NCBI RefSeq assembly: GCF_000246855.1
Contig: NC_016609.1
Span: 3,968,001 to 4,032,000, forward strand
DNA: 64,000 nt
Direction of reading: 5' to 3'
Source of the DNA: Niastella koreensis GR20-10
GTDB lineage: Bacteria; Bacteroidota; Bacteroidia; Chitinophagales; Chitinophagaceae
Part shown: piece by piece, positions 8,593 to 13,597 of the stretch
How the letters are laid out: each line of letters starts with the position of its first letter
How positions within the stretch are numbered: the stretch's first letter is position 1
Made by a program: the position numbers and the translations under genes
The notes under the pieces: generated by a model
Database searches by the model: none
What the model was told of the DNA's origin: nothing
What the model saw: only the letters and a program-made list of their open reading frames with translations

Positions 8593-9669
8593 TTATGAAT
8601 ATAGTTCCGATTTACCGCCGCGCACTGCCCAGTGATCCGCCTCATAACTTTCGTTAAAGTATACAGTACCGCCTTTGTTCACCACCCATTGGCCCTCTTC
8701 GGCTTCCTGTACCCAGTCGTATTCAATCGGAATAATAATTTTATTATTGGTATCCACCACCCCCCACTTAACGCCTTCTGCAATTAAATTACCGGTCTCC
8801 TCCTCGAAGTAAAAGTTGAAGACGCCTTTGGCTACCTTGAAAAAACCGGTGCCCTCAAACACATCTACAAACGCATAGTCGCAGGGAATTTTTACGGCCC
8901 CATCGGCATTGATAATGCCCCAGATGCCCGTAAAGGCGCTCATACCGTTATCGTAATAGTCAAATTCCGTTTCCTGGCATTGCCTGATCACTTTGTATAA
9001 TCCAGGCGCTGTTTTTCCTTCAGCACCTGTATTGGGAGATGCCAGAAAGATGCTGTCGTATGGCAATGCGTGCAATTCACGGGTGGGAAAATGAAAAGTA
9101 AAATACCGGCTATTCAGGTCCTGCACTATAACCCTGTCGTTTTTTACCTGGTTGAAAATATACCGGTATTTAAAATCGAGCAGTACGTTTTCACTAACAT
9201 CGATAATGCCATACCCGTCGCCCTGTTGCGCTTTATAAATACCGGTCTGCAGAAAATGCAACGACACATAAGAAAAAGGAATTACGGACCTGCCTTTGTT
9301 ATCGAGCAGCCCCATGGCATCCTCCTTCAGCACCAGCAGGCAGCCCCCCTCGTCTATTTGTACGGTTGAAACGCCCAGCACACTTGCCTGCACCTGGCCA
9401 TTTATATCATAAAAATAAAAGTTCTTTCCATCCACCTGCCAGTGGTCCTCCGGGTAAAACACCGCTTGCAGGTAATTCAATACGTGGTTAAAACTGATTG
9501 AATTATAAACCGGTTCAACCAAAATGGAGAAAACTCCCGGCATGATTTCACTGAGCACACCCCATTTATCGTCACTATTTTTATAAATAGTGATCGCCTC
9601 ATACACCAGTTCGCTGTACTGAATGGCGTATCTGTCCACAATAGGTGATGGTAACAGGTTATTTGTCAT
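8593..9669 (-). CDS. WG-repeat protein
   Basis: The 358-residue protein contains several WG repeats, a beta-rich unit of about 40-60 residues marked by W/Y-G-[VI]-[IL]-[DN]: KWGVLSEIMPG, GYGIIDVSENVLLDFKY, GIWGIINADGAVKIPCDY, VKWGVVDTNNKIIIPIEYDW. There is no signal peptide or membrane helix. WG repeats are poorly understood and thought to act in binding. The stop is 27 bases upstream of the cupin ATG, so the two may be cotranscribed. Confidence 0.85.
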   Translation of the reverse strand: MTNNLLPSPIVDRYAIQYSELVYEAITIYKNSDDKWGVLSEIMPGVFSILVEPVYNSISFNHVLNYLQAVFYPEDHWQVDGKNFYFYDINGQVQASVLGVSTVQIDEGGCLLVLKEDAMGLLDNKGRSVIPFSYVSLHFLQTGIYKAQQGDGYGIIDVSENVLLDFKYRYIFNQVKNDRVIVQDLNSRYFTFHFPTRELHALPYDSIFLASPNTGAEGKTAPGLYKVIRQCQETEFDYYDNGMSAFTGIWGIINADGAVKIPCDYAFVDVFEGTGFFKVAKGVFNFYFEEETGNLIAEGVKWGVVDTNNKIIIPIEYDWVQEAEEGQWVVNKGGTVYFNESYEADHWAVRGGKSELYS

Positions 9670-9854
9670 GGAACAGTTTTTCAGGCCCTTGCCGAAGCCA
9701 AGGTACTTGTTATTTTTTCAAACTGTTTGGGGTGAAGGTATTATTAAACACTACAGTAAGTGTTTTTCATTATATGAACCTGTCAAATTATCCGGTCGGC
9801 CGCTAAGTTAAATAAGGTTCTCCTTATCGTGTACACCTGACCTGTTAATTTTGC

Positions 9855-10609
9855 CCGGAAAAGCTAAATTGAATTTTATTTGACAGCTTTAGCTTTTTGG
9901 ATGACAACAATAGCACATTGGATGACACCAATAGCATATGAAGTCACGTCTTTGCTTCATTGAATGAGACAAATAGCACATGGATAGGTCAAAGTAGATC
10001 ATGCGATAACTTAAATGCTTCATGACTAATCCCAAATAGATCATGCCCTGGCCAAAATAAGTTATTGGCTACCGAAAATTGATTGGGCTACCCTAAAAGT
10101 AAATCATGGAAGCTCTCATGTGATTTATGGAAGCCATCGTTCGATTTTTTATAGCTATCAACTGATTTAAGGAGGCTAATTAGTAACTTTTTGGAGCTGC
10201 TAACTAACTTTTGCCATGAAATAATGAGCATAAGAAGCCGGGAAAATAAAAACATGCACCTTAAAACCAAATGATGCCGGTTGCTACTTAAATTATGACG
10301 GCATAAAATGATTATTGCTACCTGCTATTTGAATTATGGCAGGTGATTTTTGGACGTAGGAAGCTTAAAACTAAAAATTGATCGCTTTCTGCCTGGTGTC
10401 GAAAATATTTGCCTGACGGAAGGACACAGCCAATGAATTGATGGTAACAAAACAATGATTGGTAGTACCCTAAAATTGAAACACGGTCTATCCAAAATTG
10501 CAAATGGACCATGATAAATGCAATGGGAAGGCTGCTAACTGGAATAGCCAGCCTGGAAAATGACAAGTGCCATTATACAAATGGAAACTGAGGAAGCAAT
10601 TCATAATAT
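9855..10609. repeat. Array of about 34 diverged 21-bp units
   Basis: From about 9855 (clear from 9897) to 10609 the DNA falls into consecutive 21-base units with a single one-base slip near 10316. Most units start TG or TT, often TGG with GC a few bases later, carry AAAT or similar around columns 12-15 and end in CA, TTA or TTT. The first two units (9897-9917, 9918-9938) share 19 of 21 bases; 10107-10127 and 10128-10148 share about 15. There are no constant repeats with unique spacers, so it is not CRISPR. Since 21 bases are seven codons, one minus-strand frame (10088-10270) reads as heptads rich in Lys, Ser and Leu, but no frame is open across the array. Confidence 0.75.
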
Positions 10610-11058
10610 CCGGACACATGAACATTAACCGGAACCTGAGTACCCATGGCTTTTACATTCAATCGCTCCCCCGGCATCATTCTGATCTTTGTTGAGAAGT
10701 AAGTGCCATAAATGGATGATTTTTAAATTAAAAGGGTAAAACGAAAAAGCCCCCTCGCTTATTTGAATCTTTCCAGCCTTTATCCTTCGATAATTGCACC
10801 GGCTTGATTATTTTTAGCGCATGAGCATCTTATCCCAACTGAAAGAGCATGCTGCAATGCAGGGAAGCCATCCGGGCTAAGGGGTTCACAGGTTATCACC
10901 TGCAGGATGCATTGGAAGAAGAAGATTTCAGGGAGGGGGGAGCGGTTGCAATAAAATTTCCTCTCATCAATTAATGCGAGCATCCAGCTTAATGAAAAAC
11001 ACGGACGACTGACGCTATCTGTATAAGGGTTTGGTTACAGGCAAAGAAGCTGTAAGAT
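10610..11058. other. Gene-poor DNA after the 21-bp array
   Basis: The 21-base phasing fades after 10609. The only coding-like trace is a short plus-strand frame at 10849-10974 (41 codons from an ATG, with the segment GFTGYHLQDALEEEDFREGG). It is preceded in another frame by MSILSQLKEHAAMQ from 10821, so it could be a decayed small gene. No known family is recognised. Nothing else was seen here. Confidence 0.4.
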
Positions 11059-11090
11059 AAAAAAAGGTCCACTTTTCAGTGAACCTTCGT
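11059..11090 (-). terminator. Terminator of the glutaminase-type gene
   Basis: On the minus strand AAGGTTCACTG pairs with AGTGGACCTT across a short loop and is followed by seven T residues. It lies about 45 bases past the stop at 11132. A nearly identical hairpin follows the tRNA-Val gene at 14949-14974. Confidence 0.85.
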
Positions 11091-11131
11091 GCTAAAACAG
11101 ACTAATTGCTGAACTATAAAAAAGTTTAATA

Positions 11132-13597
11132 TCATTTAACCTTCGTGCTGTCTGCCAGCATTTTCATAAAGAATCCCCCTACCACACTTCTGGCTTTAAA
11201 GTTTTCCCGGATGCCGGTGATGGCATCGTAGAAATCGTTCAGGGGAACGCGGGATCCGGTTTCAAGGGTAAACCGGTAAACAGGTGTTATCAGCTTTTCA
11301 AATTGATCTTGTTGCGGAGCAAAACTGGCAGTCCACAGGATCCAGTCGTTCTTGGTATAGGTTTTCCGGCTGTCCAGTGGCAACCCGAATTTCTGTTGCC
11401 TGCCAAGATAATATTGGGTTTCCGTGTCATATACCTTTTGCGGGAAAAGATGCAGGTTGAGCACTTTATCCCAGATAAGATTGTACTTCTGGCTCCAGGT
11501 TTCTTTATTATCAAAGGTGAGGCTATAGTGATCGCCGGCGTCTGCCATCTGCATCCATTTAGGCACCATGCTTTCGGCAATCGCCCGGTATTTTTTCGCA
11601 GTTTCGGTTTCGCCTAACATTTCAGCAAGCTGCGCATAACACGCGATCCCAACGATTGCTTTTACCGATAGGTTCGCATTCCGCGCCAGGTGACCGGCAA
11701 AATCATCCGTGCACAATTGCGTTTTGGGATCAAGCCCTTCTTTTGTGAGGTAGTCAACCCAGGTAGTCAATGTTTTCCAGTGCAGCTTCGCATAATTGGC
11801 ATTGCCCTGCCTGTTGGCCATTGCCGCTGTGAGGATGATCATATTACCTGATTCTTCCACTGGCATTGGCTCCCCATAGGTTTGCCCGTTAGCAGCCGGA
11901 TAAGTGCCCAGATCATGGGCTGCCCAGGGATGGGCATACTTACCGGTTTCACTGAAATGAAAAATTCCATTCAGCATCCCCTGTACCAATTCCGGGTTAT
12001 AAAGCAGGTATAACGGGGCCGATGGATAGGTGACGTCTACCGTGTTGATAAACCCGCCGCTGTTGTTTTCCTTGGAAAGCCACAGGATTTCCCCTTCAGG
12101 ACTTTTTACCAGCGTGTGCGCAGCAATGCTTTGACGATAAGCCAGGGCACACAAGTGCGCATACATATTACCACCTGCTTTGACAGCCTCGTTATTCAAT
12201 TCGTTATTAAAGGCTGCACACTTTTCCATAACCGTCTTATATTCTTTAGCAGCTTCCGCCAGCTGGCCTTCTATTGTGTGCTTACCATCATTATTCCACC
12301 AGGGACGCAGATTGGTATTAAAATACTGAATGGAAAACAGCTCGTCGTAACCAAGCAGCATCTCCCGTTCAACAGGTTCTTTTCCTACAGCACCGATGGG
12401 AATCACGGTATTCAGCGCCAGCGATTTTCCGGTAGCCGCGGTTGAGGTTACAGATCCATTACCAAATACGCTTGCAGCGTCAGGACTTCTGGTGATAAAT
12501 TGCTGCGCGCCGGACGACTGGGGTACTGCTACATAAAAATATCCCCAGTCAATTCGCATATCATCTGCACCCTTTTGAAGCACCGGTTGCGCTACAGTGC
12601 CAGTTTTTAAAATTGACAACCCGCCCGCATTATACCTGCGGGTAGAAACTTCCTGCGCAGGCTGGTACACGGCAATATTGGAGGAAGCACTCAGGAATAC
12701 TTTGACGTTGTGCTTTTTTTCATCATTGGCTTTTACGCCATAGGTAATATACGAAACAGGCCGCGACAACAACTTTAGATCATTCAGCAACAGCGGCGAG
12801 GTAAATGTCAGTTTCAGATCAATATTGCCACAGGTAAAATCATAAATGGTTTGGGTAGCGGTAACGGCCACATGCTTTTGTTCAGCCAGGGCCATGTTAT
12901 CCGTATTGTCTTTGACTTTATCTACCAGTCCAAAGTCAAGGAACCTGCCGCCCGCGGTATTTTCCAAATGGATAGCAATAATATTCTGGCCGGTTGTAAG
13001 GTCAGTTTTATTTATGGGTTGATATTGAAAGGAATTCGTCCATCCCACTTTGTCATATATCTTTTTCCCATTCAAAAAAACTTCCACATTGTCGTCGTGG
13101 TTCAACTTCAGAAAAAGCTCATTGATGTTGGCAAGATCTGTTATCGTAAAAGATCTTCTCACCCAAATGTGGTTTGACGTCCAACTGGTCTTTGCGATCT
13201 TTTCGTTATCGCCAATGGGGGCCTGACCGGATTTCCAGGCGGCATCGTTGAAATTGGCCGACATCCAGTCGCCCTGGGGCTGCGTTTCGGTATAGCGGAC
13301 TGGATAGGCTGTTTCGTCAGAAGCTTTAAGAATAGTCTTATAGTTGGTTTCGGCCTTACCCATGAACCGGTAAATGCGGCCATCTACATTGATCAATCCT
13401 AATAAAGAATGGTCTGCTCCGGTCCAGTGTTGGGTGGTTGAGGCATTCAACTGATCGGTAGTTGACCAGATACTAAAATAGGTATTGTGCGTAATGAGCG
13501 GGTAAGCGGGCGCCTGTCTGTCCTGCGCGAAGATCCAGGTTGATACAAATATTGCTGTAGTTACGGCAAGTACTTTAATGCTGTTCAATCGTGTCAT
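11132..13597 (-). CDS. Secreted glutaminase-family (DUF4964/DUF5127/DUF4965) protein
   Basis: The 821-residue protein has a signal peptide (about 1-25, ending WIFAQ) and the order typical of GtaA-like glutaminases: DUF4964 at the start (TYFSIWSTTDQLN, TQHWTGADHSLLGLINVDG), DUF5127 in the middle, and DUF4965/DUF1793 at the end with EEILWLSKEN-like and AAHDLGTYPAANGQTYGEPM, MPVEESGNMIILTAAMA segments. Family members hydrolyse glutamine to glutamate or act on glycans, as the fold is an alpha/alpha toroid like glycosidases. It is likely periplasmic or extracellular. It stands alone with its own terminator. Confidence 0.88.
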   Translation of the reverse strand: MTRLNSIKVLAVTTAIFVSTWIFAQDRQAPAYPLITHNTYFSIWSTTDQLNASTTQHWTGADHSLLGLINVDGRIYRFMGKAETNYKTILKASDETAYPVRYTETQPQGDWMSANFNDAAWKSGQAPIGDNEKIAKTSWTSNHIWVRRSFTITDLANINELFLKLNHDDNVEVFLNGKKIYDKVGWTNSFQYQPINKTDLTTGQNIIAIHLENTAGGRFLDFGLVDKVKDNTDNMALAEQKHVAVTATQTIYDFTCGNIDLKLTFTSPLLLNDLKLLSRPVSYITYGVKANDEKKHNVKVFLSASSNIAVYQPAQEVSTRRYNAGGLSILKTGTVAQPVLQKGADDMRIDWGYFYVAVPQSSGAQQFITRSPDAASVFGNGSVTSTAATGKSLALNTVIPIGAVGKEPVEREMLLGYDELFSIQYFNTNLRPWWNNDGKHTIEGQLAEAAKEYKTVMEKCAAFNNELNNEAVKAGGNMYAHLCALAYRQSIAAHTLVKSPEGEILWLSKENNSGGFINTVDVTYPSAPLYLLYNPELVQGMLNGIFHFSETGKYAHPWAAHDLGTYPAANGQTYGEPMPVEESGNMIILTAAMANRQGNANYAKLHWKTLTTWVDYLTKEGLDPKTQLCTDDFAGHLARNANLSVKAIVGIACYAQLAEMLGETETAKKYRAIAESMVPKWMQMADAGDHYSLTFDNKETWSQKYNLIWDKVLNLHLFPQKVYDTETQYYLGRQQKFGLPLDSRKTYTKNDWILWTASFAPQQDQFEKLITPVYRFTLETGSRVPLNDFYDAITGIRENFKARSVVGGFFMKMLADSTKVK

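Follow-up and report, generated by a model that had tools for sequence, protein, structure and literature searches.

A Degenerate 21-bp Array in Niastella koreensis Belongs to a Dispersed Family of Apparently Noncoding Elements

Introduction

Between two genes on the chromosome of Niastella koreensis GR20-10 lies a gene-free stretch in which a weakly conserved pattern returns every 21 bases, and the question raised by this locus is what kind of sequence keeps such a rhythm while hardly keeping its letters. The stretch lies within a window of 64,000 nucleotides (NC_016609.1, positions 3,968,001–4,032,000; all coordinates below are those of the window). A sequence-only reading of the window had described about 34 degenerate units at 9855–10609 and had offered three possible identities: a dead coiled-coil gene, a protein-binding array, or a satellite with its own biology. 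In the reading that we favor, and consider fairly probable, this array represents an old copy of a nonautonomous mobile element of the genus, noncoding and dispersed, that is assembled from helically phased 21-bp modules.

Results and Discussion

The 21-bp Rhythm and Its Limits

Over positions 9897–10609 the identity at lag 21 is 0.448 (z 10.96), and the multiples of this lag behave alike (lag 42, z 8.2; lag 63, z 8.9) while the neighboring lags 20 and 22 reach z values of only 1.6 and 2.3. The signal does not depend on the first two units (z still 9.7 over 9940–10609) and is present in both halves of the array (z 9.3 for 9897–10250 and 5.9 for 10250–10609). When all 700-base windows of the 64 kb were ranked over lags 10–59, the top one had lag 21 and began at 9869. 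The periodicity first noticed by eye is real, as none of 500 dinucleotide shuffles reached its lag-21 identity; the coordinates and the count of about 34 units given for it are both correct, and we obtained the same figure of 19/21 for the identity between units 1 and 2. Tandem Repeats Finder, which had been proposed as a check, detected at score 30 those first two units (9897–9936, 1.9 copies) and nothing else in the stretch; adjacent units of the window copy have about 45% of their letters in common.

The homologous element begins earlier than the array and includes bases from about 9860. Its left end (9860–9896, plus strand), delimited by an alignment of ten copies, contains TTATTTGACAGC, which corresponds to TTTTTTGACARC in most other copies and which in the window lies within an inverted repeat, AAAAGCTAAA..TTTAGCTTTT. 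The approximately 34 units follow at 9897–10610 on the plus strand, as defined by autocorrelation at lags 21, 42, and 63 and by the copy alignment, and stand in the same order as in those other copies. The right end falls near 10610, with a boundary that is not sharp, and the right flank (10611–11130) has no 21-bp periodicity (z 0.17 over 10609–11130, reached by 225 of 500 shuffles). Both neighboring genes are on the minus strand: to the left an open reading frame (ORF) for a WG-repeat protein (8593–9669; PF14903, E 8e-14), with its start turned toward the element's left end, and to the right one for a glutaminase-A-like protein (11132–13597; PF16335, E 4e-138), whose 3′ end faces the array.

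One Copy among Many

Of the three identities offered for the array, the satellite with a biology of its own is supported and can be extended: the array is one member of a dispersed, multicopy family (family A). Among ten genomes of the genus, a model built from the primary sequence of the left end identified five loci in the N. koreensis genome itself (G000, one contig of 9,033,684 bases) and eight distinct loci in a second genome (G009; nine rows, the ninth being the opposite strand of one locus), with weaker-scoring matches in G007 (three rows), G006, and G008 (one row each) and none in G001–G005. A second copy in the N. koreensis genome, L002, is 82% identical to the window copy over 338 bases, and weaker copies exist besides. 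When the window element was searched against G009, five of the ten match rows started at bases 1–19 of the query (window 9855–9873), from which we conclude that the family-A element has a defined left end. Ten copies could be aligned, L011 over its first part only, with pairwise identities of 47–82%; their layout consists of the left end, TTTTTTGACARC.., followed by units in a common order, with TGAAGTCACGTCTTTG and TTCTATGAAATAATTAG, for example, found at corresponding places. The left end also carries a promoter-like sequence that points outward, which we rejected as a general promoter of the neighboring gene: of the 12 family-A copies with a neighbor on that side (L049 has none), six face a gene start and six a gene 3′ end.

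A second family (family B) was found through one 21-bp array of another genome of the genus, G002. A search with that array returned matches in eight of the ten genomes; the array part itself was matched in three (G000, G002, and G006), and the match in the other five did not go beyond about base 141 of the query, a part that is the end of an IS3-like element (so labeled from a neighboring transposase-like ORF, not from a family search). The N. koreensis genome holds 13 family-B copies that are 68–97% identical, ten of them wholly between ORFs of at least 100 aa and three overlapping the end of an ORF by about 15, 25, and 97 bases. The family-B element divides into 21-bp units over its entire length, with a unit order common to the copies and a leader whose length differs among them. 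Its relatives include L219, L221, with a higher-order run of 42 bp that is fresh, and L224, which lacks the array and has its left and right ends joined. At two or three G002 loci (L121:1–640, L123:4823–4920) the end of the IS3-like element abuts the left end of family-B arrays, as though such arrays were a preferred target.

In the genomes examined, elements of these families were seen only within one genus of soil bacteria. Across 79 genomes of the family Chitinophagaceae, nearly all from other genera, only the N. koreensis genome and one spurious match passed E 0.001 under stricter filters; the spurious match (G016, another genus) lies within an ordinary ORF and was dropped. Approximately 0.39 Mb from five other genera contained no 21-bp array free of a heptamer signal, which is weak evidence given that about two would be expected at the rate of the genus. 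A two-unit family-B pattern had a single record, from Niastella caeni, among 84,980 species genomes (a collection from which records of the N. koreensis genome may be left out) and no match among viral contigs, and the pattern TAAACATTGGAGCAACCYG had no record in the species-genome collection.

Letters Change, Phase Is Largely Kept

The copies of both families allow substitutions to be set against insertions and deletions. The window copy differs from L002 by 101 substitutions in 411 columns and by gaps of 1 and 42 bases only. Across family A, the larger length differences are multiples of the unit (20–23, 42, and 63 bases) at about seven distinct places; small out-of-phase gaps outnumber these, at about 11 distinct gaps (of 1–2 bases, plus one of 8 and one of 9), against roughly 700 substitutions in eight copies. 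For 11 family-B copies, a count that omits L217 (truncated) and L218 (most diverged), the tree implies at least 430 substitutions by parsimony; the internal out-of-phase indels number three (3 bases in L209, 1 in L213, and 1 in L216), with one or two further indels at an ambiguous left edge and three of unit size; L217 and L218 add up to three small indels, one of them common to both. This amounts to about 86–143 substitutions per out-of-phase indel, taking three to five indels. The mutation-accumulation rates tabulated for seven bacteria in PMC4978911 correspond, by our own division of the tabulated values, to 0.10–0.36 indels per substitution, or about 44–154 indels expected for 430 substitutions. 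Substitutions were clustered in five of seven family-B pairs tested, and the copies therefore probably exchange tracts, which inflates the substitution count and weakens the argument from indels. One orthologous pair within the genus offered only 32 aligned noncoding bases (11 substitutions and three one-base indels), too few to serve as a neutral control. In these copies, phase is largely kept while the letters change freely, out-of-phase indels being few relative to substitutions. If it is indeed the spacing and not the letters that is kept, these elements would be a rare case of helical phase as a unit of selection in bacterial DNA, and a single genome provides some twenty natural variants with which a reading of phase could be tested.

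A Putative Mobile Element of Phased Modules

A full element strings together about 20–36 nonidentical 21-bp modules in a set order and has recognizable left and right ends. As 21 bp are two turns of the helix, every module faces the same side of the DNA. We hypothesize that copies spread through a recombinase or transposase acting in trans, that units are gained or lost in steps of 21 by in-register slippage or recombination, and that tracts may be exchanged between copies. Gain and loss in register is suggested by one relative, G007, which holds a fresh run of 17.0 near-identical units (92% match) beside older ones. Phase would probably be kept through a DNA-binding protein, either of the host or of the mobilizing machinery, that has to contact the modules from one side of the helix; were such contact needed, a copy with broken phase would no longer be used or copied. 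The notion of a protein-binding array is possible insofar as phase is largely kept, although direct tests of it (dyads, hairpins, curvature, and a 10.5-bp rhythm) gave mixed results. Contact on one face would be expected to leave a 10.5-bp rhythm in the substitutions, and of three sets of copies only family B of the N. koreensis genome has it.

Copy number and identity among copies are what point to mobility. No array lies in the 1500 bases downstream of the orthologous glutaminase genes of G004, G005, G007, and G009 (highest lag-21 identity 0.28–0.36), and the relatives of the WG-repeat gene, found in three of the nine other genus genomes, have no 21-bp array within 1500 bases (highest lag-21 identity over 210 bases, 0.34–0.36). 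Mobility in trans is suggested by copies that are nearly identical and occupy unlinked sites between genes, on either strand, and by the lack of an array beside these relatives. Several features of miniature inverted-repeat transposable elements (MITEs) are found: the elements are short and noncoding, their copies are dispersed between genes (13 family-B and 5 family-A loci in the N. koreensis genome), and a tandem array lies between a recognizable leader and tail, of which L224 retains the ends only. A look for bias in chromosome position placed 17 of 23 loci in the central half of the contig (p 0.035). Inverted terminal repeats were not seen by eye among the few intact ends (the left end was usable at four and the right end at nine of ten loci); L224 has a similar TTTTAAT..AATTG stretch at both ends, in direct orientation. 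No target-site duplication was evident, the exact ends differing between copies, and no empty insertion site was found. A search of the N. koreensis genome with the whole element returned 19 rows and no longer copy with a gene inside; no parent transposase was found, though distant parents would escape such a search.

Dispersed elements with internal repeats are known from other bacteria. The BOX elements of Streptococcus pneumoniae are modular, dispersed, and intergenic and contain a variable number of an internal module, as do the Niastella elements, but their internal module is longer and present in few copies. By layout, the nearest described element that we found is BrickBuilt of Porphyromonas gingivalis, which the passages of PMC4596501 cited here describe as a MITE with an internal 23-nt minisatellite, present in 19 copies and reported as always intergenic. 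According to the same passages its units are nearly alike (0–11% mismatch, 0–6% indels) and its ends match the inverted repeats of IS5-family elements, both ends being kept in 4 of 19 copies (PMC4596501). Both elements occur in Bacteroidota, are dispersed and noncoding, have a narrow host range, and consist of a leader and a tail that flank tandem units, each about two helical turns long; the Niastella elements differ from this account of BrickBuilt in their period (21 as against 23), in units that are strongly diverged yet fixed in order, and in that no inverted ends were seen among the few intact ends compared (PMC4596501). For these reasons we describe them as MITE-like and do not file them as MITEs. 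Another P. gingivalis element treated in that paper, PgRS/MITE464, is likewise dispersed with an internal tandem array, but has 41-nt units, and so another period, and other ends (PMC4596501). A review of prokaryotic MITEs from 2024 refers to BrickBuilt and, in the passages cited here, names nothing like the Niastella element (PMC10969869). Among the matches listed from open-access papers, none reported an element of this kind from Niastella or Chitinophagaceae, or 21-bp repeats from Bacteroidetes, Chitinophaga, or Niastella.

A broader proposition, which we offer tentatively and regard as somewhat unlikely, is that these arrays form a genus-specific class of DNA element in which helical phase rather than sequence is conserved, and whose modules would be read by a protein polymer counting two turns that organizes the chromosome or copies the element.

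Alternative Explanations

The array could instead be an ordinary minisatellite, in which local slippage made the 21-bp repeat and neutral decay followed. Neighboring units are alike, slippage does act in these genomes (the fresh 17-unit run in G007 and the 42-bp higher-order runs of L067 and L221), and the intergenic DNA of the genus contains arrays of other periods (7/14 and 11) as well. The unit order and ends common to copies at many loci argue against it, as does the ratio of substitutions to out-of-phase indels among the 11 family-B copies. In its plain form, with a single locus and no shared unit order, this explanation is mostly refuted by the dispersed homologous copies, and we consider it unlikely overall.

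Equally, the arrays could be helically phased protein-binding or nucleoid-organizing sites of the host, selected locus by locus and only rarely duplicated, which we likewise find improbable. A unit of two turns is what such a site would share with our data, as is a phase largely kept among copies that differ by 20–50%, and the family-B copies of the N. koreensis genome have a substitution rhythm of 10.5 bp (power 8.29) that is the strongest of all periods from 4 to 40 and is reached by 0 of 2000 plain and 4 of 5000 base-stratified permutations. In a nine-copy subset, 26 of 5000 permutations reached the rhythm of the first half and 508 of 5000 that of the second, and periods of 6.75 and 5.0 exceed 10.5 in the halves of the set. 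The rhythm was not replicated in the family-B copies of G002 (2735 of 5000; five usable copies, two of the seven rows being empty because the loci lie at contig edges) or in family A (320 and 649 of 2000; eight of ten copies, L011 and L003 having been dropped). Further points against a host site selected at each locus are the lack of an array at the glutaminase orthologs (four relatives) and the WG-repeat gene (three), the fact that dyads exceeded column-permuted controls (at most 5 of 60) in just 5 of 17 arrays, and the lack of a known partner protein.

It is quite unlikely that the arrays are intrinsically curved DNA to which each unit adds an in-phase bend. The predicted bend of the window copy, 75° per 126 bp, does exceed that of shuffled sequences (45°, z 3.7) and of column-permuted window arrays (52°, with 6 of 200 reaching the window value), and curvature is very strong in L109, L100, and L092 (0 of 200). 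These bends are predictions that depend on the wedge parameters chosen. Whereas 10 of 17 arrays were reached by at most 22 of 200 column permutations, curvature was not raised in the other 7, which include the family-A copies L013, L014, and L018 (54 to 138 of 200).

Less likely still is an RNA, structured or guide-like, built from 21-nt units. Folding is better than in 20 shuffles for the plus strand of the window copy (z −2.9), and local 20-nt folding reaches z −1.9 or lower on one or both strands of 5 of 17 arrays, but the minus strand of the window copy folds no better than shuffles (z −0.8) and its local folding is weaker than that of shuffled sequence (z +1.9 and +2.1). The consensus structure of the left end is weak (nine pairs, −1.49 kcal/mol, three pairs with two-sided changes), and no Rfam family reached its gathering score over window positions 9650–11150, where two matches up to E 5 both fell below it. 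Small RNA hairpins were rejected as a general feature, 12 of 17 arrays having no excess folding.

A heptad-repeat (coiled-coil) protein gene, living or dead, is refuted on present data and hardly credible, since, although the period equals seven codons and short heptad-like ORFs exist (two of 60 and 82 aa on the window's minus strand, and a 98-aa MKPLPDW repeat in L052), all six frames contain stops in 10 of 10 family-A copies, substitutions show no codon-position bias in seven of eight family-A pairs (the eighth at p 0.027, uncorrected), and the two ORFs in the window have no Pfam match at E 0.001. The proposal of a dead coiled-coil gene is left unsupported by these same results, and short "heptad" ORFs annotated in such genomes or databases may be artefacts, that is, false genes.

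Short-Period Arrays in the Genus

A census covered about 1.51 Mb from seven genomes of the genus, taken at even spacing from G000, from three G009 contigs and one G007 contig, and from the contig starts of four others. It returned 86 segments with autocorrelation, of which 45 overlap ORFs of at least 150 aa by less than 40%. Nine of these 45 noncoding rows, at eight distinct places, had lag 21 or 42; the remainder had other values, including a lag of 14 in 13 rows, of 11 in 10 rows, and of 8 in 4 rows. The lag-7 signal was near zero in six of seven intergenic 21-bp arrays (z −1.3 to 0.7) and reached 2.7 in the seventh, and lay at z 3.2–9.4 in three lag-14 arrays for which it was computed and at 8.5 in a fourth array, L122.

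Heptamer arrays (such as those of TCACCTT and CCAGGTT/CCAAGTT) recur between genes in the genus (L072:18072–18239, L059:238–287, L085:14460–14985). TAACTGA heptamer direct repeats are described, in the passages of PMC4679880 cited here, from Beggiatoaceae, Cyanobacteria, and five Bacteroidetes as mostly intergenic and scattered in distribution. They resemble the Niastella elements as short-period, mostly intergenic arrays of scattered distribution and differ from them in their 7-base period, and the heptamer arrays of the genus differ in sequence from those reported there in other Bacteroidetes (PMC4679880).

Three minor observations concern individual arrays and periods. The 98-aa ORF of MKPLPDW repeats at L052:6101–6397 is simply a fresh 21-bp array. 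The array at L067:9640–10070 has a 42-bp higher-order period, its 21-bp units bearing by turns AACTGAAA and the reverse complement of this sequence, TTTCAGTT. A second class of degenerate intergenic arrays has a period of 11, about one helical turn, and accounts for the 10 lag-11 rows among the 45; the lag-11 z was 4.3–7.5 in the eight checked, and examples lie at L095:16305–16980, L082:7319–7799, and L117:17275–17723.
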